Shown here: positions 18,258 through 34,852 of the stretch, piece after piece | Layout: each line of letters begins with the position of its first letter | How positions within the stretch are numbered: position 1 is the first letter of the stretch | Assembly (NCBI GenBank): GCA_021324305.1 | Contig: JAJPJI010000015.1 | Location: 124,001 to 188,000 of the forward strand | DNA length: 64,000 bases | From: Gammaproteobacteria bacterium | GTDB lineage: Bacteria; Pseudomonadota; Gammaproteobacteria; DSM-16500 | Reading direction: 5' to 3' | Notes under the pieces: generated by a model | Database searches by the model: none | What the model saw: the letters and a program-made list of their open reading frames with translations, nothing else | Told to the model about the DNA's origin: nothing | Made by a program: the position numbers and the translations under genes

Positions 18258-18275
18258 TTTTTTTTAGGAGTTAAC

Positions 18276-20177
18276 ATGCTGAGGTTGAAGTTACTTTTGC
18301 TGCTCGCTTTAGCAGCCATTCTGCTTCTGATATCACCAGCGGCAGCCGCTCAATATCAACCAGAACGCATTTATAATTTTGTCAGCTCCATCGTTGTCAA
18401 CAAGAATGCATCCATTGATGTGACTGAAGTGATTTCCGTTTTTGCCAATCAAGATAGAATTACGCACGGCATTATAAGACGGCTGCCAACACGCTATGTC
18501 GACAGCTACGGTATTTCCCGGCATACGCAATATGATATCCAGCACATCCTGCTAAACGATCAGGACTCCACCTATCACATTGAACGTACGCTAGGCCAGC
18601 TTTCAATTTATATCGGCGACCGGAATACCATTCTTTCGCCTGGCGATTACACTTATACCATTCAATACCACGTCAATGGTGCCATTAATTCTTTGCGTGA
18701 CGCGGATGAACTTTACTGGAATATCACTGGAAATAACTGGGATTTTCCGATAGAACGAGCCCAGGCGAATATACAGCTTCCCGATGGCGCCTCCATCTCT
18801 CGATATGCGGGATATACAGGCGTCACCGGCAGTAAAGGACAGGATTATGCCGTGTCGCAGACCGCTCCCAACCAGATGACCTTCACAACCACACGTACCC
18901 TGGAGCCTGGAGAAGGGCTGACCGTGGCTGCAGCATGGCAAAAAGGCATCATCAGTCAGCCGACCTGGGGACAGTGGCTCTGGCAGCAGCTAACCCCAGG
19001 GCAATACCTGATCATTGAAATCACCTTCATTCTGATTGGTTATTATCTGCTGATCTGGAATTTTTACGGTCGACATCCTCCCAAAGGCACTATTATTCCA
19101 TTATTTGAACCGCCACAGAATTTAACCCCTGAAGCCATGCGCTATATTTTACACATGGGCTTTAATATCAAAACCTTCACTGTTGCGATTATCAATATGG
19201 CGACAGAAGGCTATTTGAAAATCGAAAATGACAACAATAAATTTTTCGTTGTTAATCAGGGGAAATCCATTGATATTCTCGCAGACGAAGAAAAAAACGT
19301 TGCGCTTGAATTATTCAATCAGGGATCATCGCTGGAACTGTCTTCCAGCAATTATGCGCAAATACGCAAGGCACAGCGGGCTTTGCAAAAAAAACTGCAC
19401 GACAAGTATCAAGCAACGTATTTCATTACCAATAACATCTATTTAATGGTCGGCGCCCTCTTTACATTGTTTGCGTTTGCCGCCGCGATCATTTCTGCTG
19501 ATGATCCTGCTTCAGCAGCCCAGGCAGTAGGATGGCTGTCGATATGGACATTCGCCTGCTCTGTCATCCTGATACAAATGTTTTACAAAATTGAGGAAGC
19601 AAAAGCCACAGGTTCCTTTTTGAAAATTCTCGGAGCAACCCTTTCCATTATTTTTGTTTCACCGTTCCTGATTGGTGAAGTCATTGGAATTTATATTTTC
19701 AGTTCGGCTATTCCGATTTTCACGCTGCCCATGCTGTTTTTTATTGTGGTCATTAATATTTTCTTTTATCACTTGCTCAAGGTGCCAACCATTGAAGGCC
19801 GAAAGTTGATGGACCAGATTGAAGGATTCAAATTATATCTTGCAACGACAGAACGATATCGTCTTGAGCAGATGAATCCCCCGCAAAAAACACCAGAATT
19901 GTTTGAAAAATATCTGCCTTACGCCATCGCTCTGGATGTGGAAAATCAATGGGGAGAAAATTTTGATGACGTTTTGCGTAACGCAGGCATTGAACCCAGC
20001 AGCTATCATCCGGTCTGGTACTCAGGCTCAGGCTGGTCGGTCGCTTCGGTTTCTTCCATGCCGCTATTCATCGGGGCAGCGATTACTACTTCCGTGATTT
20101 CATCCTCATCTTCTGGTAGCGGGGGCGGCGGATTCTCAGGCGGTGGTGGCGGAGGAGGCGGCGGAGGGGGATGGTAA
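18276..20177 (+). CDS. DUF2207 membrane protein with a glycine-rich tail
   Basis: The 633-residue protein has a signal peptide (about 1-25), an extracytoplasmic beta-rich DUF2207 domain (about 30-215), membrane helices near 240-260, 375-410 and 450-500, and a cytoplasmic region. It ends in an extreme Ser/Gly tail of about 30 residues (SGGGGFSGGGGGGGGGGGW). Such tails are typical of DUF2207 and TPM-domain proteins found with LemA. Function is not established. Confidence 0.9.
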   Translation: MLRLKLLLLLALAAILLLISPAAAAQYQPERIYNFVSSIVVNKNASIDVTEVISVFANQDRITHGIIRRLPTRYVDSYGISRHTQYDIQHILLNDQDSTYHIERTLGQLSIYIGDRNTILSPGDYTYTIQYHVNGAINSLRDADELYWNITGNNWDFPIERAQANIQLPDGASISRYAGYTGVTGSKGQDYAVSQTAPNQMTFTTTRTLEPGEGLTVAAAWQKGIISQPTWGQWLWQQLTPGQYLIIEITFILIGYYLLIWNFYGRHPPKGTIIPLFEPPQNLTPEAMRYILHMGFNIKTFTVAIINMATEGYLKIENDNNKFFVVNQGKSIDILADEEKNVALELFNQGSSLELSSSNYAQIRKAQRALQKKLHDKYQATYFITNNIYLMVGALFTLFAFAAAIISADDPASAAQAVGWLSIWTFACSVILIQMFYKIEEAKATGSFLKILGATLSIIFVSPFLIGEVIGIYIFSSAIPIFTLPMLFFIVVINIFFYHLLKVPTIEGRKLMDQIEGFKLYLATTERYRLEQMNPPQKTPELFEKYLPYAIALDVENQWGENFDDVLRNAGIEPSSYHPVWYSGSGWSVASVSSMPLFIGAAITTSVISSSSSGSGGGGFSGGGGGGGGGGGW

Positions 20178-21996: not shown

Positions 21997-22070
21997 GGGC
22001 CCATAGCTCAGTTGGTTAGAGCAGAGGACTCATAATCCTTTGGTCCTAGGTTCAAGTCCTAGTGGGCCCA
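21997..22070 (+). tRNA. tRNA with CAU anticodon (Met or Ile2), target of the integrative element
   Basis: The 74-base gene folds into a full cloverleaf: acceptor GGGCCCA/TGGGCCC, D stem GCTC/GAGC, anticodon stem GAGGA/TCCTT with loop CTCATAA, and T stem CTAGG/CCTAG. The anticodon is CAT, so it is elongator tRNA-Met or the lysidine-modified tRNA-Ile2; sequence alone does not decide. The discriminator base is A and no CCA is encoded (GTG follows). Its 3' half, from the anticodon loop onward, is the left attachment site. Confidence 0.93.
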
Positions 22071-22090
22071 GTGTAGAATCAATAGGTTAC
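22029..22090 (+). repeat. attL, 62-bp direct repeat (copy 1)
   Basis: It begins exactly at the anticodon loop of the tRNA, covers the 3' half of the gene and runs 20 bases beyond. It is identical base for base to 31606-31667, and the copy leaves the tRNA intact. It is typical of tyrosine-recombinase attachment at a tRNA 3' end. Confidence 0.95.
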
Positions 22091-22118
22091 AAAGTGGCGC
22101 GAAATCTCAGAAATCTCA

Positions 22119-22137
22119 TGTAGAAGGGGTGTAGAAG
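22119..22137 (+). promoter_or_regulatory. Left arm-type integrase sites (paired TGTAGAAG)
   Basis: TGTAGAAG occurs at 22119-22126 and 22130-22137, an 11-base period (one helical turn), 28 bases inside attL. The same pair with the same period lies near the other end at 31458-31476. Paired short direct repeats at both ends fit arm-type binding sites of a lambda-like integrase. Confidence 0.55.
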
Positions 22138-22165
22138 GAAAGATTAATAAATCAGGGAGCTTTTC

Positions 22166-22630
22166 ATGAAAAAAATACTATTCACCTATCTTTTACTTTG
22201 GATCTCACTCCCAGCATTCTCGGAAAACAAAGAAGCCATAAAAACAATAAAGGATATCTCCTTTGAACTAGCTTCTATAAATCAACAAATCGCCACACTA
22301 TCGCAAGAAAGCAATAAACCCACTAATAAAATTAAAGCCCAAGCCAAAGTAACAAAGTCTGGCATGATACAAATACAAGTACCTTTGAGCGCCATCAAAA
22401 GTACAACTCTTGGCCAATCCGCTTATCTTTATGGGAATTTCGAAAATAAAGAGGAAATGTCATTCCATATATTTAAATATCAAACCAAAGATGTGTACGA
22501 ACTTATAATATATAAAATGCGAGCATTAAAACTGAAATATGAAAATAACCCATATATTCGAATAACTGGTTTCAGTATTAATATTGGAATTCCACCCTCT
22601 GTTACTGTCGCCATGGAATTCAAAAAATAA
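22166..22630 (+). CDS. Secreted orphan protein (element cargo)
   Basis: The 154-residue protein is not recognised. It has a clear signal peptide (MKKILFTYLLLWISLPAFS, cleavage near residue 19). A short coiled-coil-like helix follows (IKDISFELASINQQIATLSQ), then a beta-rich domain of about 90 residues. The ribosome site GGGAG is well placed. It is the first gene inside the element's left end. Confidence 0.65.
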   Translation: MKKILFTYLLLWISLPAFSENKEAIKTIKDISFELASINQQIATLSQESNKPTNKIKAQAKVTKSGMIQIQVPLSAIKSTTLGQSAYLYGNFENKEEMSFHIFKYQTKDVYELIIYKMRALKLKYENNPYIRITGFSINIGIPPSVTVAMEFKK

Positions 22631-22641
22631 TGAGTGCGTAA

Positions 22642-22752
22642 ATGGAAAATCCTAAAAAAACATCCAATTCCAACAAAATGCCACCCTATCTGTTAGTACG
22701 AGAAGTTAAATTTTATGAGGATGACATATGTTATCAATCGGCCAGCACGTAA
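22642..22752 (+). CDS. Small ORF (36 aa) overlapping the HEPN-like gene start
   Basis: ATG at 22642 opens a 36-residue frame that ends 25 bases inside the next gene, in another frame. A weak GAGTG precedes it. The peptide is basic at its N-terminus, then mixed (PPYLLVREVKFYEDDICYQ). The overlap suggests translational coupling to the downstream gene. It may be a leader peptide, a tiny partner protein or chance. Confidence 0.3.
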   Translation: MENPKKTSNSNKMPPYLLVREVKFYEDDICYQSAST

Positions 22753-23375
22753 AATATTCAATTGACGCATTTCACCGTAATGAATTTTTGCTTGCATTTG
22801 AACAAGCATCAATCGCTATAGATATGACTGCAAAAAATTATTTTCTGGCAACTAAAAGTAGTGGAAAAAATTACAAAGAATTATTAACTGATTATTTATG
22901 GGTTTTAGAATTTATGTCATTTCCTGGCATCAATCTTAATGAATCTACTTTTGGGAATTTTTCTTTTACAGATTCATTTGATGAAACACATGACAATCCT
23001 TCAATTTCAGAAATACTATATCATATAGTACGTTGCAGCTTAATTCATGGTGATAAATCCGATCAAATTTTTAGATTTCATCGTGATGATAGCATATTTC
23101 TTGGTAAAGATATTCTTATCCTGCCATACCGAACACTTTGGGGCTTAATCGGCATAGTGACTTTTTGTTCAGCTAACAAAAATGAAACTACCTCTGACGG
23201 GTATTGGTTGACCATTAATAATCATCATTATGACATCAACATGTCATGGGGTATACAGGACAGTATATATGCACTATATACACAGCAGATTGCAAATTCG
23301 CCTAGAGTAAAATTAAACATACTTAAGGAACATTTTTATCCCATTAAAGAGAACGAAACGATGAATCAAGCCTAG
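22728..23375 (+). CDS. HEPN-like protein with an RX4H motif (element cargo)
   Basis: The 215-residue protein is mostly helical. Residues 13-40 (AFHRNEFLLAFEQASIAIDMTAKNYF) resemble the first helices of a HEPN domain. Arg102 to His107 (RCSLIH, followed by GD) matches the R-x4-6-H catalytic motif of HEPN ribonucleases, at the start of a predicted helix as in the family. HEPN nucleases cut RNA in abortive infection and toxin-antitoxin systems. No MNT partner is adjacent; the overlapping 36-residue ORF is the only candidate. Function in phage defence is inferred from the motif and from its position on a mobile element. Confidence 0.55.
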   Translation: MLSIGQHVKYSIDAFHRNEFLLAFEQASIAIDMTAKNYFLATKSSGKNYKELLTDYLWVLEFMSFPGINLNESTFGNFSFTDSFDETHDNPSISEILYHIVRCSLIHGDKSDQIFRFHRDDSIFLGKDILILPYRTLWGLIGIVTFCSANKNETTSDGYWLTINNHHYDINMSWGIQDSIYALYTQQIANSPRVKLNILKEHFYPIKENETMNQA

Positions 23376-23469
23376 TTATCTTTGGAAAACACAATGACAA
23401 GTTAGTGCATTTTTTCACGACAGTTACAAATAGGTCAACTTTTCCAACAATTATTCTAAACCAACAAAC

Positions 23470-23676
23470 TTAATTTTTTTGTTTCATATCATCCGCTATT
23501 ATCCCTAAATTTCCTTGTCTATACGAAGCCACCAAAAGCTTATCCTCAGTAACAACACAATACTCATTTTTTACATTCTTTAGAGATTCAGCTTCAGCAA
23601 AGCGAAATTCATCTAATTTATTTACAAAATCTTTAACAAAGATACCATCCTTTTCAACCATAAATTTACTAGTCAT
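23470..23676 (-). CDS. Small orphan protein downstream of the Cys-rich secreted protein
   Basis: The 68-residue protein is acidic and lysine-rich, with no signal peptide and no recognised domain (KNEYCVVTEDKLLVASYRQGNLGIIADD). ATG has GGAGAAATTCA just before it, a good ribosome site. It starts 15 bases after the stop of the secreted Cys-rich gene, so the two form a small operon. Confidence 0.55.
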   Translation of the reverse strand: MTSKFMVEKDGIFVKDFVNKLDEFRFAEAESLKNVKNEYCVVTEDKLLVASYRQGNLGIIADDMKQKN

Positions 23677-23691
23677 TGAATTTCTCCATCA

Positions 23692-23991
23692 TTAATTTTG
23701 AACACAAGCGCCTTCAATTTCTCCACTACCTTTAAGACATGTAGAACCGGGACCGCAATCAGTATCAAATTCACAAGTATCACCGGTTGTACCATTCGGA
23801 TCAGTTGGAGAATAAACCGGTTGTTGATCATTACTATTTCCAGGATCAATGCCGCCTGTACAAATTCCATAGATACTTCCAGAAGAAATAATACATGTAT
23901 TTCCTGGGCTACAATCTGTATCAAACTCACAAGCAAATGAGATATTTGAAAGGAAGAAAAGCAGAAAGAAAAGAAAGGATATTTTTTTCAT
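23692..23991 (-). CDS. Secreted Cys-rich protein with two repeats
   Basis: The 99-residue protein has a signal peptide (MKKISFLFFLLFFLSNISFA) and then two copies of one unit, CEFDTDCxPGxTC-x5-G-x-I-x-G-x-C, joined by an Asp/Pro/Gly-rich linker. Each unit has four cysteines, expected to form two disulfides in the periplasm or outside the cell. The Cys directly after the signal peptide could also be a lipidation site, but the preceding SFA is not a strong lipobox. The ribosome site AGGAG supports the start. Function is unknown. Confidence 0.65.
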   Translation of the reverse strand: MKKISFLFFLLFFLSNISFACEFDTDCSPGNTCIISSGSIYGICTGGIDPGNSNDQQPVYSPTDPNGTTGDTCEFDTDCGPGSTCLKGSGEIEGACVQN

Positions 23992-24047
23992 TTTTATTAC
24001 TCCTCGCTTTATTTAATTATAGCACGTATAAAAATCGATCCGTAAAA

Positions 24048-24176
24048 TCACTTAATTATTAATCCATAACCTCTTAACAATTCATCCAAATTAAATTCTT
24101 GATAAAAAGATGGATCGAATACTACCGCAAAATATTTTTTTAGTAAAAATTGTTCGGTATTAACCTCATTTTCCCT
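24048..24176 (-). pseudogene. Possible gene remnant without a start codon
   Basis: A 42-codon open stretch ending at TGA 24048-24050 reads like coding sequence (AVVFDPSFYQEFNLDELLRG) but is bounded upstream by a stop and has no ATG, GTG or TTG start. It sits in the 328-base gap between two divergent cargo genes and may be the tail of a decayed gene. The rest of the gap (24177-24328) is very AT-rich and holds nothing else I can name. Confidence 0.25.
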
Positions 24177-24328
24177 CTAATAAAAATCTCTTTTTTTTTG
24201 ACAAATAAATATTCATTAAATCAAAGCACTTCTGACTTTAGGTTGCATGTTATTCATTTTACTGCGAAAGAATTGTAAATACTCAAAATGGTATAATTCA
24301 TTTATGGATATATTTTGAGTTGAAGACA

Positions 24329-24778
24329 ATGCCAAATAACAAACAAAATCATTTATATGTCTTTGTTAAGGGAAACAAGGGAAAAGGTGGCTATGAGATA
24401 ACAGACACCGATTTTAACCCTATACATTCTGACGTTGTAGAAAATGGTGAGACAGCATCACCTTATCTAATGGACTTACAAGCGATTGAGAAGAGCTTGG
24501 AATACATAATAGATAATAAAGGCAATAATGGAATACCAAATGAACCTGTCATTTTCATATTTACTACTTTTGAAAACAATTACCATGTTGCTGCAGGAAT
24601 AAAAGAACCTCTAAGAAAGGAAATGAAAAAATTCATGAAAAATTTTTCTCAATTAAAAAGAAACTTAATTCGACCAGGTATCGCCTCGCACGATGAAGTA
24701 AAATGTTATTGGATTCCAGATAATTTTGAAAATCGCATTGAAGATGTAAAGAGGCTATTAGATGGAAAAAGCCATTAA
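24329..24778 (+). CDS. Orphan element protein, weak RNase H-like pattern
   Basis: The 149-residue protein starts at ATG 24329 with GAAG four bases before it; an in-frame TTG at 24320 is the alternative. The layout is a beta hairpin (LYVFVKGNKGKGGYEITDTD), a helix starting DLQAIEKSLEYI, a hydrophobic strand (PVIFIFTTFE) and a charged helical region. This order is reminiscent of a degenerate RNase H fold, but the full acidic active site is not visible. No function is claimed. Confidence 0.5.
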   Translation: MPNNKQNHLYVFVKGNKGKGGYEITDTDFNPIHSDVVENGETASPYLMDLQAIEKSLEYIIDNKGNNGIPNEPVIFIFTTFENNYHVAAGIKEPLRKEMKKFMKNFSQLKRNLIRPGIASHDEVKCYWIPDNFENRIEDVKRLLDGKSH

Positions 24779-24855
24779 TTAAAATCATTCATTGGATTAG
24801 TCTCAATAACTGTTAACTCAAGTGTCTCATTAAAATATCAGTATCGCTCTCAAAC

Positions 24856-25335
24856 TTACGAAAATTGTAAACTCATTATAGTTACATCGTTTTCAAACAA
24901 ACTATCGCTACCAATCACTACCCACCCCAACCTCCCATACCACTCAGAAATAGTCGGATCAAACGCAAGCAAGTATAATTTTTCATGACCAAATGATTTA
25001 GCTTTCACCTTAACCACATCAATAAGCGCCTCACCAATCTTTCGCCCGCGGTAGTTTGGATCTACTACTAAGCTACCCAGCCAAGGCGTAAGAGATGGCT
25101 GAATGCCGTCAGTTTTTCGCAGACAAACCATGCCGATTGGCTTCTCTTCATGCAGCGCCACAAATGCCATTGGCAGTTGCTCGGTATTCAAATGATCGAC
25201 AAGCTTATTTCGATTTCTTTCAACTGACGCACCAGGCACCCAGTGCTTACTTATTCCGTCATACCATAGCTGGGCTAGATGTGGAATATGCTCAGGGCAA
25301 TCGGTCAGTAGCTTGATTTGCATATCTTTTTTCAT
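24856..25335 (-). CDS. GNAT-family N-acetyltransferase
   Basis: The 159-residue protein has the GNAT core: IGMVCLRKTDG, then WLGSLVVDPNYRGRKIGEALI, whose RGRKIG is the acetyl-CoA pyrophosphate loop, and EKLYLLAFD. Substrate is unknown. ATG at 25333-25335 is preferred because GAGGG lies nine bases upstream; an in-frame GTG at 25344 is possible. It is 35 bases downstream of the replication-relaxation gene and may be a late cargo gene of that operon. Confidence 0.85.
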   Translation of the reverse strand: MKKDMQIKLLTDCPEHIPHLAQLWYDGISKHWVPGASVERNRNKLVDHLNTEQLPMAFVALHEEKPIGMVCLRKTDGIQPSLTPWLGSLVVDPNYRGRKIGEALIDVVKVKAKSFGHEKLYLLAFDPTISEWYGRLGWVVIGSDSLFENDVTIMSLQFS

Positions 25336-25370
25336 TTTATACACCCTCTTAGCTGGAGCTATTCTTTCAT

Positions 25371-26042
25371 CTACACTCGCCTATTACAACGACTAAGATA
25401 CGGTATTGAGTTTAAATCCAGTAACTCAGCCAAACTAAAAATCTTAATATACGTATCGTAATCATCTGCTGCCTTGATCATTTTTTTCATAATCTGTGGT
25501 GCGCAATAATACCAAGCTCCTCTAAAATCAAATTCGGTAATTAAATTACTGAATATCCTTTCCAATCGCCAACTACCCTTCATCGTTAACTCAACTTCAA
25601 TCGCAATTTGTCTGTTATCTGGAAACAATAAAACACCATCCGCTATATGTCCGCGCTGTCCCGCTTCCATTTTATATTTCTTGAATTTATCACGTATTAA
25701 TTCGCGCTCACTGATCCATACTGCTTCAGGGTATCGCTTAATCAACTGCATATAGACTGCTATCACCATTAATTGGTGATAATAATTTCCCAAATAAACC
25801 TTATCTACCGGCGGTAAATCTGTATGCCTTGCTCCATTTCGACTCAACCGAAATATTCCATGTTTCCCATGTAAAATTCGTTCATGTATGACCAAACCTT
25901 CTTTCACTAATCGCTGCATCACTTTATAGCTTCTAGGTTTTCGTAAACCAAACCATTTCTCAATGTGCACGATCTCACAAAAACCAAACTGATTTATAAA
26001 CTTCATGATCTCTCTATCTCTCTCAGTCAAAATCATATTCAT
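25371..26042 (-). CDS. Replication-relaxation family protein (element replication module)
   Basis: From ATG 26042 (or 26036) the protein is about 224 residues. It has an N-terminal winged helix (LTERDREIMKFINQFGFCEIVHIEKWFGL...SYKVMQRLVKEGLV) and a C-terminal alpha/beta region (HIADGVLLFPDNRQIAIEVELT) resembling a nuclease-type fold. This layout fits replication-relaxation proteins found beside origins of plasmids and integrative elements. The open frame extends to 26237, through a 32-bp hairpin, but the ribosome site AAGGGG points to the internal start. The region just upstream looks like an origin. Confidence 0.65.
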   Translation of the reverse strand: MNMILTERDREIMKFINQFGFCEIVHIEKWFGLRKPRSYKVMQRLVKEGLVIHERILHGKHGIFRLSRNGARHTDLPPVDKVYLGNYYHQLMVIAVYMQLIKRYPEAVWISERELIRDKFKKYKMEAGQRGHIADGVLLFPDNRQIAIEVELTMKGSWRLERIFSNLITEFDFRGAWYYCAPQIMKKMIKAADDYDTYIKIFSLAELLDLNSIPYLSRCNRRV

Positions 26043-26089
26043 AAACCCCTTATGTTTTTTGCTTTTAAAAATATTCAGTCGCTGCACTG

Positions 26090-26168
26090 AATCCTGCACG
26101 CTGGCGCCTGACCACAATAACATCGCTTTACGATTTGTTATTGTGGTCAGGCGCCAGCGTGCAGGATT
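26090..26168. repeat. Perfect 32-bp inverted repeat with a 15-base loop
   Basis: The arms 26090-26121 and 26137-26168 are exact reverse complements. The centre of each arm contains CTGGCGCCTGACCACAATAA or its complement and is GC-rich, unlike the AT-rich surroundings. No T-tract follows on either strand, so it is not an ordinary terminator. It could be a single-strand or double-strand replication origin, a nickase target, or the remnant of a palindromic insertion. Confidence 0.9.
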
Positions 26169-26271
26169 AAAGTCAGTATTGATCGGGCTTCCAACCGCTT
26201 TTACCACACTAATTTGAGTAGCCACCCTGTTAGACACTTTTCACTTAATCATTCAAATACCAGCCCACTAC

Positions 26272-26311
26272 CCGACAAAACCGACAAAACTACTATTGTC
26301 AGTTATGTCGG
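26272..26311. repeat. Dyad element, copy 1 (CCGACA...TGTCGG)
   Basis: The arm CCGACAAAACCGACAA (26272-26287) and the arm TTGTCAGTTATGTCGG (26296-26311) form an inverted repeat with two mismatches and an 8-base loop. The right arm, with preceding bases ACTA, is repeated at 29191-29206. It is a likely protein-binding site, for example for the replication protein. Confidence 0.6.
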
Positions 26312-26329
26312 TGATGACTCCTGCGTACC

Positions 26330-27943
26330 TTAGAAGAAATTTTCCGATGTTGGATGATGTATTTTCAATTTTGGATTGATGGTATAAATAGGGGATTTTG
26401 GCCTGCCATATTCATAATCTTGCAATTCCGGCCTGATCCAGCCTGCTTCCACCAACTCATCGCAAGCCTTTTGTACAACAGTTTTTTCATCCAGCATCGC
26501 CCATTCTTTACGATAAATATCACGCACCGAAAAAGATGTGCTCAGCTCACCGTCTTTGATTTTTTTAGCAAGTCTGGAAGCAGATTGGTAAACATGATTG
26601 TTGACCATCCCATAAATGCGGCGCGCATGATTTTCTAAATAACCGCACCAACCAAGCGCCATATAAAAAGCATCGCTTGATACTGCACGATATTGCTTAC
26701 CATCAGCTACTTCAATTAGATGAAAAATTAATGCGAGACTGGGCAAGAGACTGCTGAATTTAGAGAAATGTTCAACCAAAATGGGATGTTCATCATCGGC
26801 TTGTATTTTTTTCTCTTGAAAATTTTTATACCACTCATTAAATAAATTTTGTGCCATTTCATCAAAATGAAAATAGGCAAAACGATCACTCATTCCTTTA
26901 ATTGCACCAATTTCAACAGGATTTATCACAGCTAGCTTTTTAAAGACCTCAATCACTCGCTGTTTAGCCTGATGATGAGGGTTGCGATCAATAAATTCCC
27001 ATTTTTTTGGCTCATCAGGATAAATCAATAATTGAAACCGTTGTAATAATCCGTCATTATCTGCACCACGGATTGCATGATACAAATAGCGTGATAGTTT
27101 TGCTGGTTGTGTATTACCAAAAATTGAAATACACAAATTTTCAGTATGCACAGTTCCTCGGCTAATTCTATCTGTTGTGAGTGACCCATCACCATTCCAT
27201 GCTTCAAGAAAAAAGGCGCGATCGCCTTCGCGCCCTTCTTTTTCCCATGTTGAAAGCAACCCGACTAATTCATCACGATACAGCAAAAGACCACGGGGAT
27301 TATCCGCTAGTAATTCACTTAATTTTTCGACGGTAGTATCATTCGTTTTGTAACGTTTCCAAATTGGTTTTTTTGGTTCATTAGTTTGAATGAGATTTTC
27401 CTTCAATGTTAAAGATTCAAAAGACGATTCTTTTGATTTGGTTTTAAGCGCTTTTTTCCGCGCTGTTAATATGGTTGTTTTAATGGCTTCTTTATCTGCC
27501 TTATAAAATTCCATATCGGCTTGATAGCCAACCATTTCTTGGTCGTAAACTTTTTTTGCTTCTGATTCCAATTGCTTGATCACTTGCATCACCTCAGCAA
27601 CAGCAGGTGTTTTTAACATGCCAGGACGGCCTACAATGCCTCCCCACAAGTTAGGTATCACTAACCAATCATCATTCTGCTTTGGTTTAATCCCGCACGA
27701 TGTACCAATGATGGATGCCGTTGTAACCATAGCAGCAACTGCAACATAATCCGGCGGACATTGCATACGTTCTGCAACATCTGTAATCCAGTCTCGATAA
27801 GATTCAGGAATATGCGCCAACGCTAATGGTTTAACCTCTGATAAGGTATTGCGTAATGGTTCTGGCTCAGGCCAATCAATAACCGGAGTAAAATCTGTAT
27901 TTGAATTTGTTTGAAACTTATTGAACATTTTTCTTATAACCAT
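26330..27943 (-). CDS. DUF3987 domain protein (primase/replication-associated)
   Basis: The 537-residue protein matches the DUF3987 pattern of phage and island replication proteins: an N-terminal segment (PPDYVAVAAMVTTASIIGTSCGIKPK), WGGIVGRPGMLKTPA as a Walker-A-like loop, LLLYRDELVGLLSTWEKEG and AFFLEAWNGDGS as the Walker-B region, then SIFGNTQPAKL. Such proteins are thought to act as helicase or primase partners. It lies 38 bases after the AlpA-like gene in the same leftward operon. Confidence 0.8.
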   Translation of the reverse strand: MVIRKMFNKFQTNSNTDFTPVIDWPEPEPLRNTLSEVKPLALAHIPESYRDWITDVAERMQCPPDYVAVAAMVTTASIIGTSCGIKPKQNDDWLVIPNLWGGIVGRPGMLKTPAVAEVMQVIKQLESEAKKVYDQEMVGYQADMEFYKADKEAIKTTILTARKKALKTKSKESSFESLTLKENLIQTNEPKKPIWKRYKTNDTTVEKLSELLADNPRGLLLYRDELVGLLSTWEKEGREGDRAFFLEAWNGDGSLTTDRISRGTVHTENLCISIFGNTQPAKLSRYLYHAIRGADNDGLLQRFQLLIYPDEPKKWEFIDRNPHHQAKQRVIEVFKKLAVINPVEIGAIKGMSDRFAYFHFDEMAQNLFNEWYKNFQEKKIQADDEHPILVEHFSKFSSLLPSLALIFHLIEVADGKQYRAVSSDAFYMALGWCGYLENHARRIYGMVNNHVYQSASRLAKKIKDGELSTSFSVRDIYRKEWAMLDEKTVVQKACDELVEAGWIRPELQDYEYGRPKSPIYTINPKLKIHHPTSENFF

Positions 27944-27981
27944 AAATTCTCCTTTTATTAGTATTTATTTTCCTGGAAAAC

Positions 27982-28239
27982 TTATTTCGCTGAGGCAAGC
28001 ACTGCCGTTGATTGAATCGGTTGATGCTGTTCTAGCCATGCGCGTATATCTGATTTGCGATACCGAACTAATCCCCCCATTTTCACAAACGGAACGCCTG
28101 TCCCCACCCAACGATCACGCTCGAGGGTTGAAAGTGAGCAATCACGGATAGCTGCCACCGTTTCTTGAGAAAACATGACCCATTCTGGGGATAGTTCGTA
28201 TTCCTTGATTAAATCAAGACGAGATTTCATTGATTTCAT
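27982..28239 (-). CDS. AlpA/excisionase-like DNA-binding protein
   Basis: The 85-residue protein has a MerR-like winged helix: SQETVAAIRDCSLSTLERDRWVGTGVPFVKMGGLVRYRKSDIRAWLEQ. Residues GLVRYRKSDIRAWL are the hallmark of AlpA and Xis proteins. Expected roles are excision control and activation of the replication operon. It is the first gene of the leftward operon, 33 bases from a promoter with operators. AGGAG lies nine bases before the ATG. Confidence 0.85.
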   Translation of the reverse strand: MKSMKSRLDLIKEYELSPEWVMFSQETVAAIRDCSLSTLERDRWVGTGVPFVKMGGLVRYRKSDIRAWLEQHQPIQSTAVLASAK

Positions 28240-28272
28240 AAATATATACTCCTAGTAGTTAAAGTGTTGGAG

Positions 28273-28300
28273 ATATTACTATTTGTATATATAAATTCAA
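28273..28300 (-). promoter_or_regulatory. Leftward promoter of the alpA-DUF3987 operon
   Basis: On the minus strand, TTGAAT (28300-28295) and TAATAT (28278-28273) are 16 bases apart. The spacer is almost exactly occupied by operator copy 1 (28278-28295), so bound repressor would block polymerase. Confidence 0.55.
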
Positions 28301-28329
28301 GTTTTTTATTAACTATTTGTATATATAAA
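28278..28329. promoter_or_regulatory. Two operator repeats between repressor and alpA
   Basis: The 18-base sequence ACTATTTGTATATATAAA occurs at 28278-28295 and again at 28312-28329, with a 34-base period (about three helical turns). Each copy contains the near-palindrome TTTGTATATATAAA. They lie in the divergent promoter region, as expected for operators of the neighbouring repressor. Confidence 0.65.
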
Positions 28330-28337
28330 CTAGGCCT

Positions 28338-28366
28338 TTGAAATTTTTCTATACAATGTGTACTAT
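28338..28366 (+). promoter_or_regulatory. Rightward promoter of the repressor gene
   Basis: TTGAAA (28338-28343) and TACTAT (28361-28366) are 17 bases apart. A short palindrome TACA-ATG-TGTA overlaps the -10 region and could be a third operator for autoregulation. The repressor ATG follows at 28400. Confidence 0.5.
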
Positions 28367-28399
28367 TACACCTTGCTTAAATGCTACTGAGTCCAAATA

Positions 28400-29083
28400 A
28401 TGAGCTTTGATCATAAATTGTTTAGTGAATGGCCTGATCGCGTAAAAAGTCGATTGAAAGAACTTTCAATGACTCAAGATGATCTTGCACGCGAGATGGA
28501 GCTTACACGAGGTGCGATTGCTCATTATTTAGGCGGACGTCGTGTTCCACCCACAAAACAGTTCCAAAAGCTTGCAAAAATACTCAAGGTTGATCCGATT
28601 TGGCTACAGTATGGAATCCAACCTGATCCAAACGAGCCAAGACCATATTTCAAAGAACTTGATCCTTTGAATCCCATTACGCCAATTCCTATTATTACTT
28701 GGAAGCAAGTTGCTGAAACTGCTGATTTAGAACAGATCGATAAGCTAAAAAAAATTGAATATATTCCGCATCTTTACACAGATGAATTAGGTCATTATGC
28801 CTTGCGTATCAAAGGTGATGCGATGACTGCGCTATCAGGTCATATGACGAGTTTTAGAGAGGGAGACATTATTCAAGTTGATCAAGCTGCCAAACCCAGA
28901 CACAACGATTATGTTGTCGTTGTATTACATGGAGCGAAAGAAGCAACATTTAGGCAGTATATTATTGATGGTGGAATAGCTTATTTAAAACCTATCAATC
29001 CTCAATTTCCTCTTATTGAACTAGATGATAAAACCCGCTTTTGCGGAGTAGCGGTTTATCACATAGCTAAATCTAGCTTGTAG
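28400..29083 (+). CDS. CI/LexA-like repressor with a catalytically dead S24 domain
   Basis: The 227-residue protein has an XRE helix-turn-helix (residues 15-68: RLKELSMTQDDLAREMELTRGAIAHYLGG) and a C-terminal S24 peptidase fold. In self-cleaving repressors the serine lies in GDSM; here residue 141 is Ala (KGDAM). The catalytic Lys position reads Arg185 (ATFRQY). Both members of the Ser-Lys dyad are therefore missing, so RecA-stimulated self-cleavage is not expected. Induction would need another signal, such as an antirepressor. It is divergent from alpA, with operators between. Confidence 0.88.
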   Translation: MSFDHKLFSEWPDRVKSRLKELSMTQDDLAREMELTRGAIAHYLGGRRVPPTKQFQKLAKILKVDPIWLQYGIQPDPNEPRPYFKELDPLNPITPIPIITWKQVAETADLEQIDKLKKIEYIPHLYTDELGHYALRIKGDAMTALSGHMTSFREGDIIQVDQAAKPRHNDYVVVVLHGAKEATFRQYIIDGGIAYLKPINPQFPLIELDDKTRFCGVAVYHIAKSSL

Positions 29084-29173
29084 CTGCTTGACCACTTGTC
29101 GGCCAACATGTCGGGTGACTTGTAGGATGTTTTTCTTCATAAAGCATGGGAAAGCTTAATATGGTATCACTGT

Positions 29174-29206
29174 CATAACTGACAAAAATCACTATTGTCA
29201 GTTATG
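29174..29206. repeat. Dyad element, copy 2
   Basis: CATAACTGACAA (29174-29185) and TTGTCAGTTATG (29195-29206) are perfect 12-base inverted arms with a 9-base loop. The 16 bases ACTATTGTCAGTTATG (29191-29206) are identical to 26292-26307. The rest of the 29084-29334 gap holds nothing else I can identify. Confidence 0.65.
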
Positions 29207-29334
29207 GCGGTAGGTGAAATGGTTAACTTTAGTGAGTAAGATAAATTCATTAACTTGCCATCTATCTAAACCATCCTCCACAATCAATAAGTTAGAGGCT
29301 ATTAAGATCGGCATTTTCTGCTATAATTATCAAT

Positions 29335-29541
29335 ATGAAAACAAAATCACTCATCAAAACTAATCCATATCTCAAAGATGCAGCTAAGCGAAAAATGCTA
29401 GTAGCTCGCTCTGTGAGAACTTCTTGTGGTGTTGAAGGCATCAAACCAAAGCAGGATGATGTTATTCTGCCAACCATTACCCATCATAAAGACAAGAAAA
29501 TCTATAAACTGCTTAAGCGGACTGCACGAGCAGCATCTTAA
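29335..29541 (+). CDS. Small basic protein antisense to the end of fic
   Basis: The 68-residue protein (NPYLKDAAKRKMLVARSVRTSCGVEGIK) resembles a widespread family of short proteins with the pattern NPYL.D...R..M..R.V.TS..VEGI. I recall these beside Fic and nucleotidyltransferase genes but cannot name a function. It overlaps the 3' end of the minus-strand fic gene by 29 bases, tail to tail. Its promoter would lie in the 29084-29334 gap. Confidence 0.55.
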   Translation: MKTKSLIKTNPYLKDAAKRKMLVARSVRTSCGVEGIKPKQDDVILPTITHHKDKKIYKLLKRTARAAS

Positions 29542-30163
29542 AAATTTTCTTGATTGGCTCATAATCTAAATTCATACCAGCATGTATAGCCATAATATAT
29601 TCTATAAATCCTTGTTCATTTACGGTGCGATCAATTGCACTATAATTCAATGGTGGATTTTTTGACTGCATTGACATCAGATCAGCTAACAATCGAGCAA
29701 CCCTGCCATTACCCTCGCGGAAGGGATGAATCAATATAAATTCTACATGAACAATACCAAGCGCAAATGCAATCTGCTCAATATCTGAATAATGACAAGG
29801 AGTATATTTTGCAAGAAAATCCGACTCAAATTTTTCCATCAGATACACAATACGACTTGCCAGTGCAAACGAGAAACCTTCTTTTGATATATTTACAGTA
29901 CGGTATTTACCTGCAAAAGGATAAATTTCGCCAAGCCATAATTCATGAATGGCACATATATCTTCGGCTGTAAATCGATGGTTCTCATCAATCAAAGTCA
30001 GCAATTCTGATTCAGCCCTGCCTAACTCACGCTCCTCCAGCGCTTCCATTTTTTCTTTGGATTTGATGCCAAAAAAATTTTTAAGCACTTCTTGGTTTGA
30101 GTCTGGTTCAAAATCTTCATCTGATGGAACTGTATATCGTCCAGTTTTTTTAAATGTCATCAT
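29513..30163 (-). CDS. Fic-family protein
   Basis: The 216-residue protein has an intact Fic active site HPFREGNGR at residues 146-154, with the conserved helices before (IAFALGIVHVEFILI) and after. The upstream YPFAGKYRTVNISKEG is the flap that positions the target. Fic enzymes usually transfer AMP from ATP to protein hydroxyls. I see no clear inhibitory S/T-x-x-x-E-G/N helix, so an antitoxin may exist elsewhere or not at all. Its ATG overlaps the integrase stop by four bases, so it is translationally coupled to integrase. Confidence 0.92.
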   Translation of the reverse strand: MMTFKKTGRYTVPSDEDFEPDSNQEVLKNFFGIKSKEKMEALEERELGRAESELLTLIDENHRFTAEDICAIHELWLGEIYPFAGKYRTVNISKEGFSFALASRIVYLMEKFESDFLAKYTPCHYSDIEQIAFALGIVHVEFILIHPFREGNGRVARLLADLMSMQSKNPPLNYSAIDRTVNEQGFIEYIMAIHAGMNLDYEPIKKIFKMLLVQSA

Positions 30164-31440
30164 CCATTTCCTTCTTCAGCAGTTTTGTGATTTTGAAGAT
30201 TTCTTTTATGCTCTGAGATGTCAACCACATCAGCTGATTTAACTACACCAGCCAACTTCAATAAATGATCTGTTATTTTTTGCATTGGGACTCTCAATCG
30301 CTCCACATCCATCACAATATATCCCGCTGTCACATCCTGCGTCATTTTATGATTCAATAATCGCTTCAGCGCATAGGCAGGAATATCAAGGCTTTCAGCA
30401 ACAGTAATAAATGTCCGGCGCAAATCATGCAGCATAAACATGACACCGCTCTGCTCAATAATTTTCTTCATCACCTTACGCGGCTCAACGTTATAGCCTG
30501 TTTTACCGCTTCCAGGAAATACAAATTGAACATCTGATTCGGATTCCGCTCTACGATTTTCAAACAGTTTCAAAAGAAAATCAGACAATGGCAACACATG
30601 AGTATGATGATTTTTCGTATCAGAAATCGTGATTGTTTTCCCTTTAAAATCCACTCTATCCCAAGTCAGCTCAATCGCTTCTTGTCTGCGTAAGCCAGTA
30701 AAAAGCAATAACAAAAAGTAATCGCGCAAAATGGATGACTTTCCAGTACTGCGTTCGTCTTTCACTTCCATCACCGCATTAAACCACGCTGCCAATTCAT
30801 GCGTCTTGATAACCGTTTGCTTTCGGTCAACCCGGTACCATGCTCTCGTGTGTGACAAACGTTTCACCGGATTCTCTGGAATGAGCGACCTGCCCTGCGA
30901 ATCTTCATACTCACCCGCTGCAAAATTAAAAAGTGCGCGTAATAACCGCATCGCGGAATTAGCCCTTGCCTTGCTTCTTTCACCAAATTCACGATGCCGT
31001 TTTGCAATCATATCTTTAGTGATATCAAGTAACGGTTTACTCTGCCAGTCTGCAAATACCTGCTTCATGAGCCGGTTATAATCTATCAATGTGTTTGGCT
31101 TAAGTTCTTTTCTTGCGATCAGGTAGGCGTCAAAAGTTTCTTTCAAGGTAATTGATTTAATCTTCTTCTCTTTACGCTCAGCGATGGGGTCAATGCCAGT
31201 TGCAATTTTTCCCAATAATTTTTTAGCTTCATTGCGGGCTTGTTCGACGGTTAGCTTGCCATACTTGCCCAAAGTCATGCGTTTTACTTTTTTCCCTATC
31301 AGCGTTTCGACAACAAAACTCTTTACACCACCAGCCGTTATGCGCAGAGCAAAGCCTTTCAGCTCGCCATCACGATAAAATATTTGATCTTTATCTTTAG
31401 GTGGTTCTGCTCGATCTACAAACATTTTGGTGAGCTTCAT
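30160..31440 (-). CDS. Tyrosine-type site-specific integrase
   Basis: The 426-residue protein has the P4-type layout: an N-terminal DUF4102 domain (DGELKGFALRITAGGVKSFVVETLIG), a SAM-like core-binding domain, and the catalytic domain. Catalytic residues are visible in TGLRRQEA (Arg), LHDLRRTF (His-x-x-Arg), LNHKM (His) and GYIVMD (Tyr). It lies next to attR and reads inward, the normal arrangement for tRNA-targeting islands. AATGAGGAG precedes the ATG. Arm-type repeats lie 18-36 bases upstream, so binding could also repress its own promoter. Confidence 0.96.
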   Translation of the reverse strand: MKLTKMFVDRAEPPKDKDQIFYRDGELKGFALRITAGGVKSFVVETLIGKKVKRMTLGKYGKLTVEQARNEAKKLLGKIATGIDPIAERKEKKIKSITLKETFDAYLIARKELKPNTLIDYNRLMKQVFADWQSKPLLDITKDMIAKRHREFGERSKARANSAMRLLRALFNFAAGEYEDSQGRSLIPENPVKRLSHTRAWYRVDRKQTVIKTHELAAWFNAVMEVKDERSTGKSSILRDYFLLLLFTGLRRQEAIELTWDRVDFKGKTITISDTKNHHTHVLPLSDFLLKLFENRRAESESDVQFVFPGSGKTGYNVEPRKVMKKIIEQSGVMFMLHDLRRTFITVAESLDIPAYALKRLLNHKMTQDVTAGYIVMDVERLRVPMQKITDHLLKLAGVVKSADVVDISEHKRNLQNHKTAEEGNG

Positions 31441-31457
31441 TAATTCTCCTCATTCCA

Positions 31458-31476
31458 TGTAGAAGCCATGTAGAAA
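31458..31476 (+). promoter_or_regulatory. Right arm-type integrase sites (paired TGTAGAA)
   Basis: TGTAGAAG (31458-31465) and TGTAGAAA (31469-31476) repeat with the same 11-base period and orientation as the pair at 22119-22137. They lie between the integrase start and attR. Confidence 0.55.
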
Positions 31477-31605
31477 GATTGTTTAAAATGGATTAAATTC
31501 AGGTGTAACGGATTATAGGCATTTAAAAGCTTAAAACAAGGCATTTTTTGAAATTTAGAAATGTTTAGAAAAAATTAAAATCGCTTGAAACAAATAATAA
31601 ACGAG

Positions 31606-31667
31606 CTCATAATCCTTTGGTCCTAGGTTCAAGTCCTAGTGGGCCCAGTGTAGAATCAATAGGTTAC
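31606..31667 (+). repeat. attR, 62-bp direct repeat (copy 2)
   Basis: It is an exact copy of 22029-22090, that is, the tRNA 3' half from the anticodon loop plus 20 flanking bases. It is not a functional tRNA because the 5' half is absent. It marks the right end of the element. Confidence 0.95.
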
Positions 31668-31760
31668 GAGTTTTTCCGCCAGCAGTTTCAAGAGTGTGTG
31701 TAATTTAGGTGCAATGGTGTCTAAACAGTGGATACTAAATACGATGTTATTACTCCCCAT

Positions 31761-31988
31761 ATGCACTGCTTCAACAATTGTCAGTCCATTTCTCTGAGCA
31801 AAAATTGTGTTTGCATTTACTGCAAACAGACTTTCCCTAAAGATAGTGTTATAGATTGGGTGGAAACCGAAACAGAGAAAACAGCCATTTGTCCTTTCTG
31901 TGGTATTGACGCTGTGATTGGTGATGCAACAAATGCTCCGATTGCAGATAGTGAGTTTATCGAAGCCATACATCAGTATTGGTTTTAA
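31761..31988 (+). CDS. Small zinc-ribbon protein
   Basis: The protein has two CxxC pairs, CIYC near the start and CPFCGIDAVIGD 29 residues later, the spacing of a zinc ribbon. Homologous cytoplasmic proteins of unknown role end in a similar acidic helix. ATG at 31761 (75 aa) is the likely start; an in-frame GTG at 31728 would give 86 aa. The overlapping minus-strand frame (31656-31973) is its shadow. It belongs to the chromosome flank right of the element. Confidence 0.7.
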   Translation: MHCFNNCQSISLSKNCVCIYCKQTFPKDSVIDWVETETEKTAICPFCGIDAVIGDATNAPIADSEFIEAIHQYWF

Positions 31989-32049
31989 TTAAAGCCTTGA
32001 ACACAATCATCAAAGTCCGAAAAAATAAATAAAGCCACAAGGCTGTTAT

Positions 32050-32160
32050 TCAAACCATTTTTCTCCGAATCCGGGACAGCTTTGGGTTTTAAAACAAGGT
32101 GGTCAGGCGCTAGGGCGCGTTTTGATTGCGGAGTTTTTTAAAACAGATATTGATTATTAA
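32050..32160 (+). pseudogene. Possible 3' fragment of a lost gene
   Basis: An open stretch ending at TAA 32158-32160 reads like a protein tail (PGQLWVLKQGGQALGRVLIA) but has no start or upstream domain. It lies in the 220-base gap between the zinc-ribbon gene and the toxin remnant. I cannot name the parent gene. The gap otherwise holds nothing clear. Confidence 0.25.
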
Positions 32161-32233
32161 TCATTTAATAATATTTGATAATCCAGTTTTCTTTTATTAG
32201 AATTCGCAAATGTACCACAAAAGTGATACAATT

Positions 32234-32624
32234 ATGGATAGAGAATACATAGCATATTCTGGCAACAAATTTACTGTTGAATGGTATTACAACTCTAAAG
32301 GAAGAAGTGAAGCTTTAGACTACTTCAAGTCTTTGACCATGCAAGAGAGAATTAAGGTATTACACCTATTCAAGAGAATGGGAGATGTAGGGGAAATAAA
32401 AGACAAAACAAAATTTAATTATGAAGGCGATCATATTTATGCTTTCAAGCCAAAACCAGATAGATTTTTATGTTTCTTTTATGTTGGCAACACAAATTAT
32501 TGTGACCAATTCTTTTCGAAAGAAGCAGCCAAAGTTGCCACAAACTGAAAAAGATCGAGCTGAAAGAAACAAAAAAGATTATCAATTAAGAGTTAAAAAA
32601 GGTGAATATTATGCCCAAGGTTAA
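32234..32624 (+). pseudogene. RelE/HigB-type toxin, frameshifted
   Basis: The first frame (from ATG 32234) carries a Gp49/HigB-like toxin to GDHIYAFKPKPDRFLCFFYVGN and then goes out of frame to a stop at 32548. The missing C-terminus (IIVTNSFRKKQPKLPQTEKD and onward) continues in the +1 frame to 32624. Joining them near 32488-32496 restores a full toxin of about 130 residues. The restored frame overlaps the antitoxin start by 14 bases, as in intact pairs. One extra base is enough to explain it. It is either an inactivated toxin or, less likely, a +1 frameshift. Confidence 0.75.
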
Positions 32625-32961
32625 AAAACCATTATCAACCTTTGAACGAGAAATGAGGAATACCAAATTCAAAAAAGCTTTTGATAAAGGCTATAAAGAA
32701 TTTTTGCTGTCTGAATTATTGATTGCCATCATGGATGAAGATGAAATATCGGTAAGAGCTTTAGCCAAAGAAGCTGGCTTATCACCGACCATTATTCAAA
32801 AGATCAGGTCGGGCAAACAAGATGACTTGAAAATAAGTAATTTTGTGAGTATTGCTCATGCGTGCGGCTATAAAGTTATTTTAGAAAAAAATGATGATAG
32901 ATTTGAGATTGAAGATAAAAAGGGCAGCAAAAAAAATATTTTAAATTTTGTGCATGCTTAA
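32611..32961 (+). CDS. HigA-like antitoxin, XRE helix-turn-helix
   Basis: From ATG 32611 the protein is 116 residues. It has a helix-turn-helix (ISVRALAKEAGLSPTIIQKIRSGKQDDLKISNFVSIAHACGYKV). It would bind and neutralise the toxin encoded just upstream and repress the operon. The gene is intact while the toxin is frameshifted, the expected direction of decay. The longer frame from 32602 adds only three residues. Confidence 0.8.
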   Translation: MPKVKKPLSTFEREMRNTKFKKAFDKGYKEFLLSELLIAIMDEDEISVRALAKEAGLSPTIIQKIRSGKQDDLKISNFVSIAHACGYKVILEKNDDRFEIEDKKGSKKNILNFVHA

Positions 32962-32982
32962 CAATTTCATAATGAGAAAATA

Positions 32983-33582
32983 ATGGACATAAAATTAAGC
33001 CTTTCTATACCTATTTTCAAATGGATAAATTCCTCATTTTTTAAATTGAAAAATTTTATATCTAGGCCAAAAGTAGAAATTAAAGTTTATATTCAACCAA
33101 TAGTCTTTATTGAAAACAACACAGAGCATCATTTCCATTATTTATGTCTGACAATAGCAAATAATACGAAAAATGTATTACATTTAAATCCGCGTAACAT
33201 AAGGATAAACAATGAGCTTTATCAGGTCATCATTCAGGGGGATACAAATTTTGCACGATTAAATCCAGCTTCAACAAACAAGTGGGATGATTGTAAAAAT
33301 GAGGTATTCAAAATGTATCAATCAAATTGGTTGGACATATCAACAAATCGGTACTTATTTACGTTAAATCCATTCGAGCAAAAAATATTTCCTTTAAAGT
33401 TAATAAAATCCGGATCTCATATAATAACAAACCGCAAAAAAGAATCACTGCTGTTTTTTCCAAAATCTAAAATATCCGTTAGCCTAGAGATAAACAAAAA
33501 AAATCATGAATATGGTCTTGATAGAATATCTGTTTACGAGACATATATTAACTATCTTGCTTTCTATTCAGATACCAATTGA
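32983..33582 (+). CDS. Orphan protein in the decaying flank
   Basis: The 199-residue protein is not recognised. It is AT-rich at DNA level, basic and beta-rich (HYLCLTIANNTKNVLHLNPRNIRI), with no clear signal peptide; the N-terminus is amphipathic. The pattern suggests an immunoglobulin-like beta-sandwich, which is only a guess. It starts 21 bases after the antitoxin stop and may have been part of that transcript. Confidence 0.5.
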   Translation: MDIKLSLSIPIFKWINSSFFKLKNFISRPKVEIKVYIQPIVFIENNTEHHFHYLCLTIANNTKNVLHLNPRNIRINNELYQVIIQGDTNFARLNPASTNKWDDCKNEVFKMYQSNWLDISTNRYLFTLNPFEQKIFPLKLIKSGSHIITNRKKESLLFFPKSKISVSLEINKKNHEYGLDRISVYETYINYLAFYSDTN

Positions 33583-33587
33583 GAAAA

Positions 33588-33903: not shown

Positions 33904-33992
33904 TGAAACGATACATTACCGTGCGTGGCCGCTCTTCACGAATCAAGAAAATAGAAAGCTATTTATGAGCAACTTTTATATTGGACTTGAAC

Positions 33993-34706: not shown

Positions 34707-34852
34707 GGTTTCCAGGTTCCCTATCTACTCTTTCCTTCCTTTAAGGCAACATGCTGATGACATGCGCTTCTGAAACACAATAAATATTTCATATTCACGT
34801 CCAAATCAATTTTTAATTGCTTTAATTATGGGACATAAATCATTTTCTGGGG

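Follow-up and report, generated by a model that had tools for sequence, protein, structure and literature searches.

Relaxase genes usually lie near an origin of transfer (oriT) and alongside transfer genes. Integrative mobilizable elements (IMEs) with a MobC relaxase are known but rare: a streptococcal set of 144 IMEs included two MobC (PF13814) relaxases, accompanied by a coupling protein of the VirD4 type (PMC5357655). The PD-(D/E)XK endonucleases are relatives of the MOBC relaxases, one of which, the pAD1 protein TraX, carries a winged helix at its N terminus (PMC12857230). A chromosomal island, SGI1, carries its own oriT and mobilisation proteins and uses a conjugative helper (PMC9299015, PMC6414798). 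We present here a 9.6-kb element inserted at a CAU tRNA gene of a gammaproteobacterium (Table 1), found in a window of 64,000 nucleotides (positions 124,001 to 188,000 of contig JAJPJI010000015.1, assembly GCA_021324305.1); coordinates without prefix are those of this window, and other genomes, contigs and loci bear our own G, C and L numbers. It is likely, in our opinion, that this element is an IME with its own relaxase ('iMOB', PMC11389934) and a palindromic oriT.

The element resembles the streptococcal MobC IMEs in having an integrase and a MOBC-type relaxase homologue and no mating channel, but no coupling protein such as theirs was found in it, and they belong to a different phylum (PMC5357655). 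With CloDF13 and pAD1 it shares a relaxase of the PD-(D/E)XK type; however, TraX binds five direct repeats located 70-120 bp from the nick site (nic), whereas the candidate site in the window is a long palindrome whose core is conserved and whose arms are free (PMC12857230). SGI1 is alike in its general organization but relies on MpsA and MpsB where the window element has a MOBC protein (PMC9299015). Among the literature matches listed, we found neither the combination of a MOBC-type relaxase, a replication helicase and a Fic module without coupling protein nor a MOBC site with symmetric free arms, and a palindromic MOBC oriT was absent from the publication titles; the primary CloDF13 and pAD1 studies (2001, 2002, 2013) were outside this comparison, and an earlier description is possible. 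Phage satellites of the P4 and PICI types carry an integrase, AlpA, a repressor and a replication ATPase in a size similar to that of the window element, which differs from them in its relaxase homologue and in that no clear packaging gene was found.

The element and its insertion site

The tRNA gene, with the anticodon CAT at gene position 35, would code for either elongator Met or Ile2, and it stays intact at the left end of the element. The two 62-bp direct repeats were identical at 62/62 positions; they begin in the anticodon loop, two bases 5' of the anticodon, and span the last 42 nt of the tRNA gene plus 20 nt past it. No third copy was found when the whole assembly was searched, and the chance expectation of a 22-nt part of the repeat in the 64-kb window was 0.00. 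An earlier note on this DNA had described such perfect repeats starting at the anticodon loop, with an integrase inside the right one, and both points were confirmed, the integrase gene starting 165 bp inward of the right repeat. Just inside both ends, at 22119 and 31458, there are paired TGTAGAAG-type sites, as would be expected of integrase arm sites. The G+C content was 36.9% within the element vs 46.5% on the left side, and low values extended beyond the right repeat to about 36000, outside the element.

Displaced tRNA 3' halves were present near the intact tRNA gene in four genomes of the genus (G001, G002, G006 and G013, those of G002 being a tandem pair), and G016 had one on a separate contig. 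The left flank of the tRNA gene was compared in eight relatives (G003, G006, G007, G010 and G016 being left out) and was collinear in seven of them (G001, G002, G008, G009, G012, G013 and G015); it was not seen in G005.

A MOBC-type relaxase homologue

By homology, the protein encoded at 25371-26030 appears to be a relaxase of the MOBC type. It scored 36.8 bits with NF041423 (MobC family replication-relaxation protein), below the curated cut-off of 200 that Vibrio mobC exceeds (245), and it is therefore termed here a MOBC-type homologue and not a member of the NF041423 subfamily. The homologue in G009 matched NF041423 at 4.8e-15 and PF13814 at 7.8e-5 (23.3 bits vs a cut-off of 25.3). An alignment of ten sequences, including two plasmid proteins (an annotated mobC from Vibrio and one from a Carboxydocella plasmid typed as MOBC), disclosed seven invariant positions (H85, R109, H128, D131, E145, E147 and K151 in window numbering), and the catalytic residues of the PD-(D/E)XK type (H128, D131, E145, E147 and K151) were thus present in 10/10 sequences. 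The longest open reading frame (ORF) opens at 26237, and the homologues begin near 26030. For an N-terminal winged helix there were weak TrmB/HTH-type matches only, and a single-sequence structure model was too poor for use (predicted local distance difference test, pLDDT, 41.2). MobC was present in 9 of 36 genomes of the family; no match to it emerged from the phage collection, and a pattern-based scan of viral contigs, which returned 77 stretches, yielded no relatives.

A palindrome upstream of mobC

A palindrome whose 33-nt arms are fully complementary precedes the MobC start by about 60 bp; the best inverted repeats in shuffled element sequences reached 8-11. Such a palindrome adjoins 10 of the 13 mobC matches of the family genomes and lies approximately 30-95 bp upstream in the eight measured; the matches devoid of it were G025:C125, G025:C233 (a fragment) and G032:C81 (where the match starts at the contig edge). 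The inner-core pattern occurred at 38 places in the 36 genomes vs 26 for the reversed control, and 16 of these 38 extended as palindromes when inspected by eye, 14 with outer arms of at least 11 and two (G034:C8) with short arms. Eleven of the 16 were beside mobC, one of them downstream of it (G005), and the remaining five were in C18 of the own genome (G000), in G002 (two) and in G034 (two), all of them genomes with MobC (chance 0.012).

The outer arms of 18 copies showed 248 Watson-Crick pairs out of 250 and no G-T, a figure overstated because the arm ends were set by complementarity, and mean identity among copies was 36%. In a 17-copy alignment that leaves out one near-duplicate and the Carboxydocella copy, 94.4% of the cells were paired vs 66.0% after shuffling, with 109 double-sided changes vs one single-sided, in copies that had been partly collected for being palindromes. 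This ratio speaks for a symmetry of the DNA itself more than for an RNA hairpin, and arms that vary and yet remain complementary suggest that a hairpin or a two-fold symmetry would matter, and not the arm sequence. In many copies the loop region contains an inner repeat, ATCG-TAC-CGAT, and we regard the palindrome as a candidate oriT and its loop as the candidate nic. The palindrome had no Rfam match at the gathering score, and its pattern was not found in viral contigs. Multi-copy palindromes of another type (GGGTGGGCAAAGCG...), like dispersed repeats of the repetitive extragenic palindrome (REP) kind, were observed in G021 (L188, L192 and L195).

The palindrome in other genomes and in plasmids

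We built a covariance model (R1) from 17 palindromes. In 35 family genomes it matched 8 of the 9 with MobC and 1 of the 26 without it (p=3e-6), a test that is not blind because family members supplied the model; the single MobC-less genome was G021, with an unrelated repeat. In 369 genomes drawn across the class, with few members of the own family and under stricter filters, R1 matched the own genome and G178 only (29.3 bits, E=1.4e-4). In G178, a spacing of 112 bp separates the palindrome from a downstream MobC-like ORF (6.2e-11 with our hidden Markov model, HMM; 3.1e-10 with NF041423), which is followed by an ORF that on inspection resembles a coupling protein. Across 80 DUF3987 loci, R1 matched both loci with MobC and, weakly, 1 of the 78 without it. 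A further model match, at L122, scored 23.7 bits.

We also examined 14 of the 18 distinct plasmid records with MobC-like matches (left out were the second Lactiplantibacillus, the Staphylococcus, the Pantoea and the second Arsenophonus records). At E<0.01, R1 matched five of these regions, from Actinomycetota and Bacillota: Streptomyces (60.1 bits, E=3.6e-15), Arthrobacter, Paenarthrobacter, Brachybacterium and Carboxydocella, the Arthrobacter and Paenarthrobacter matches not being independent because their palindromes are identical. A plain scan placed an inverted repeat scoring at least 15 (maximum in shuffles, 13) upstream of mobC or of a coupling-protein gene in 10 of the 14 regions, namely the five R1 positives plus three Vibrio, Sporomusa and Lactiplantibacillus. 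The Sporomusa plasmid (L226:4458-4616) displayed three tandem palindromes upstream of a mobC-like gene, with an identical loop (ttttatggg) and differing complementary arms.

Transfer genes in the vicinity

In G009 (L147) and G019 (L148), the palindrome and mobC are located between virB11 and a coupling-protein gene, after genes of the virB4 to virB10 type; VirB4 was named by PF03135 and VirB11 by TIGR02788 (above cut-off in L147), whereas inspection served to name the coupling protein and the remaining VirB proteins. The G009 coupling protein shares 62% identity with its counterpart in G015 and 60% with that in G019, and G015 also has this gene after mobC. Likewise, the plasmid homologues of MobC are located beside or near coupling-protein genes.

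Related elements and a second element in the same genome

The closest element was that of G002 (L029:1619-12009), with identities of 86% for the integrase, 74% for Fic, 81% for its partner, 65% for the HTH protein, 54% for DUF3987 (its frame broken) and 76% for MobC; the S24 repressor had no match there. Its cargo differs and comprises Vsr, a HEC-01-like pair and a type II restriction-modification set. G002 carries two tandem elements at the same tRNA gene (L029, 1619-19549), both of which possess a MobC and a palindrome of their own; the restriction-modification, Vsr and HEC-01-like cargo and the broken DUF3987 frame are those of the outer element. Next to an ORF that on inspection is of the ankyrin type, G005 has kept S24, HTH, DUF3987 and MobC; integrase and Fic had no match within its stretch, which lies at a contig edge. 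Therefore, in these few relatives a shared core with exchangeable cargo stands next to an intact tRNA gene. In a different genus, a contig of a metagenome-assembled genome (L047, JABDBD010000031.1, 1635-12236) carries an integrase, AlpA, a DUF3987 protein 61% identical to that in the window and its own coupling-protein gene (PF02534, 5.4e-39).

A second element of the own genome (L171, G000:C18:148000-167999, at 10967-19709) lies beside the transfer-messenger RNA (tmRNA) gene and contains an integrase, a DUF6387 protein, a DUF3631 ATPase, a HipA-like protein and three oriT-like palindromes located between convergent gene ends. MobC had no match within the 20 kb examined. If the palindrome is an oriT, this element would be one of the oriT-only kind, for which the term 'iOriT' exists (PMC11389934), and it could use the MobC encoded by the tRNA element. 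Both elements of this genome code for small cysteine-rich proteins (23692-23991 and L171:16541-17038) that, on inspection, start like signal peptides and are internally duplicated.

Gene content of the element

From the right end, the gene order is integrase, Fic and small partner, S24 repressor, AlpA-type HTH protein, DUF3987, mobC-like gene, cargo and tRNA (Table 1). We found no capsid, tail or mating-channel gene among the ORFs scanned, and no part of a type IV secretion system among the 13 element ORFs with Pfam; PHROGs were run on 10 of these 13. Sequence searches against solved structures gave no meaningful match. The earlier note had spoken of immunity, excision and replication-type genes, which the S24 repressor, the AlpA/HTH_17 protein and the DUF3987 gene support, and had seen no capsid or tail genes, in agreement with our scan; it had also stated that conjugation genes were lacking, and this does not hold in view of the MOBC-type relaxase homologue and the oriT-like palindrome.

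Table 1. Features of the element and its surroundings, with window coordinates.
Feature	Coordinates	Strand	Evidence
tRNA gene, anticodon CAT, integration target	21997..22070	+	ARAGORN; Rfam RF00005 75.1 bits
attL, left 62-bp direct repeat	22029..22090	+	repeat search
left paired TGTAGAAG site, putative integrase arm site	22117..22147	+	direct-repeat family D6
cargo ORF, 154 aa, signal-peptide-like N-terminus (inspection)	22166..22630	+	no family match
cargo ORF, 215 aa	22728..23375	+	no family match
cargo ORF, 68 aa	23470..23676	-	no family match
cargo ORF, 99 aa, cysteine-rich, signal-peptide-like N-terminus (inspection)	23692..23991	-	DX, Dickkopf_N, Lustrin under Pfam cut-offs
cargo ORF, 152 aa	24320..24778	+	weak sub-cut-off matches only
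cargo ORF, GNAT acetyltransferase	24856..25344	-	PF00583 1.4e-12
mobC-like gene, MOBC-type replication-relaxation protein (relaxase homologue)	25371..26030	-	NF041423 2.4e-9; alignment
perfect 33-bp inverted repeat, 13-nt loop, candidate oriT	26090..26168	.	repeat search, covariance model
second inverted repeat, CCGACANAACTGACA type, directly after DUF3987 gene	26275..26316	.	repeat search; present in G002, G005
DUF3987/YfjI protein, AAA+ replicative-helicase-like	26330..27943	-	
HTH_17/AlpA-type regulator, likely excisionase	27982..28239	-	family matches
S24 (CI/LexA-like) repressor	28400..29083	+	PF00717 5.8e-16; phrog_4
another copy of the 26275-26316 type inverted repeat	29169..29212	.	repeat search
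68-aa protein, motif SCGVEG, likely Fic antitoxin	29335..29541	+	motif; 81% identical in G002
Fic protein, complete HPFREGNGRVAR motif	29513..30163	-	PF02661 1e-18; PADLOC PDC-S04 3.6e-71
P4-type tyrosine integrase (Arm-DNA-bind_3) with R, HxxR, H and Y of catalytic type	30160..31440	-	family matches, motif check
right paired TGTAGAAG site, putative integrase arm site	31456..31486	+	direct-repeat family D6
attR, right 62-bp direct repeat, displaced tRNA 3' half	31606..31667	+	repeat search
outside the element: 20-nt stretch, 85% alike to one palindrome arm	32099..32118	+	repeat families D18, I20

The DUF3987/YfjI family is of unknown function in Pfam, and a confident structure model showed an MCM-like AAA+ helicase fold. 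A single-protein DUF3987 query found no relative among genome or viral contigs; an alignment query returned 319 relatives, of which 80 were kept, and with our HMM MobC was present in L047 and L048 (many of these loci are short). The DUF3987 matches in phages were remote (six records, each below 60% identity). The Fic protein matches a candidate defence family in PADLOC, and its small partner is convergent and overlapping. The pair displays HPFx(D/E)GNGRxxR in Fic and [ST]xxxE[GN] in the partner, which we take to be the Fic and Fic-antitoxin motifs, SCGVEG being thus presumably of the inhibitory type.

In three elements, the DUF3987 gene is succeeded by an inverted repeat of the form CCGACANAACTGACA ... 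TGTCAGTTNTGTCGG (here, with its second copy at 29169; L029:4279 and 6287-6325; L034:4947-4987), which is possibly a replication site or an operator. To the right of the element, the low-G+C stretch 31668-36000 bears a HigB-like/XRE pair and, at 32099, a stretch resembling half a palindrome; it perhaps represents the remains of an older element. The arm-like stretch itself, where the covariance model gave no match, is possibly a palindrome remnant or may be due to chance.

Proposed mobility and alternative explanations

Integrase and attachment repeats, with no mating channel of its own, are what an IME presents, the relaxase being recognized by homology only and the oriT proposed from the palindrome. 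We suggest that the integrase and the AlpA-type factor would excise the element from the tRNA gene, that the S24 repressor would hold it silent, and that the DUF3987 protein, with its MCM-like fold, probably drives replication of the circle, Fic and its partner being a putative maintenance or defence module. The MOBC-type protein would bind and nick the palindrome upstream of its own gene as oriT, and a conjugative helper like those in G009 and G019 would provide the coupling protein and the VirB channel by which the strand exits. Rather than a capsid, the element most likely borrows a VirB-type channel together with a coupling protein.

Several observations weigh against this reading, in addition to the sub-cut-off NF041423 score and the selection of palindromic copies mentioned above. 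The MobC-like protein had no match with PF13814, and nicking, excision and transfer are inferred only. At G025:C125, a mobC match for which approximately 140-170 bp of upstream sequence were examined, there was no palindrome, and 4 of the 14 plasmid regions (two Acinetobacter, the Plautia symbiont and Arsenophonus) lacked one as well; some plasmid regions hold inverted repeats of like length in other places. CloDF13 showed no such palindrome and no significant R1 match (E=0.19), and its record did not match our MobC HMM. Where the best foreign palindrome occurs, in Streptomyces, the adjacent protein was only distantly similar (tblastn, 22.9% identity, E=4e-5) and had no NCBIfam match. The own genome, 92% complete, gave no match for VirB4 (PF03135), for the coupling protein PF02534 (a model that also fails to detect the G009 coupling protein) or for a G009-type coupling protein, Dot/Icm-type channels not having been searched, so that a helper was not seen in the assembly. 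Finally, the earlier note had proposed looking in related genomes for an uninterrupted tRNA locus; the left flank is collinear as described, but in the relatives' stretches compared no empty site with both flanks of the element was found, because the right flank differs among them.

The same note had favoured an island or phage satellite that borrows transfer functions. The borrowing stands, as the element would have to obtain them elsewhere, but a P4- or PICI-like satellite packaged by a helper phage is very unlikely in spite of the satellite-like set in 9.6 kb (integrase, S24 repressor, AlpA and replication ATPase) and of the match of the AlpA-type protein with the terminase small subunit phrog_57, which also speaks against an IME but is weak (E=0.004) and ranks under HTH and excisionase families. 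The MobC module, unmatched in phages and, by pattern scan, in viral contigs, argues against packaging, as does the lack of any other packaging-type match among the scanned ORFs, helper cos/pac sites not having been searched; as to the suggested helper prophage, phrog_2, which we take to be the terminase large subunit, had no match in the own genome at its 92% completeness. The island might instead be decaying, its mobility lost and its cargo the reason for its retention, and the missing helper and the broken DUF3987 copy of G002 would fit; this is quite unlikely, however, given that the 62-bp ends are identical and that the frames of integrase, MobC, DUF3987 and Fic are open and contain key motifs.

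Other explanations concern the palindrome. It could be a replication origin or initiation site, with the MobC-like protein as replication initiator rather than transfer relaxase: it follows a replication-type ATPase gene in the window and in L029, L034, L171 and L174, a replication role is possible since in L171 and L174 this happens without MobC, which counts against an oriT, and a review terms MOBC proteins possible multifunctional rolling-circle initiators (PMC5714925). We consider this unlikely because the palindrome-mobC pair is inside a VirB operon in G009 and G019 and the plasmid homologues keep close to coupling-protein genes. Its distance of 30-95 bp from mobC in the relatives measured would also suit an RNA hairpin or an operator controlling mobC expression, but this too is improbable: one-sided changes of the G-U type affected a single cell vs 109 double ones (a scarcity to some extent inherent in copies detected as inverted repeats), the three L171 copies lie between convergent gene ends and Rfam gave no match at the gathering score.

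Significance

We see about an even chance that an oriT class unrecognised so far is shared by MOBC-type relaxases from several phyla. It would consist of a palindrome with the conserved core TGACCACCCA ... ATCGTnCC ... TGGGTGGTCA, the outer arms of which vary freely while selection or copy-correction at the DNA level maintains their complementarity; the covariance model would detect this class and expose relaxase-free hitchhikers, such as the tmRNA-side element borrowing MobC in trans from the tRNA element. With a candidate oriT defined by structure beside such genes from Gammaproteobacteria to Actinomycetota, mapping of nic would become directly testable. If the hypothesis is true, islands that resemble phage satellites or inert DNA would be recognisable as mobilizable and dependent elements without relaxase would be revealed, while arms that change and yet stay complementary pose a puzzle for the evolution of such sites.

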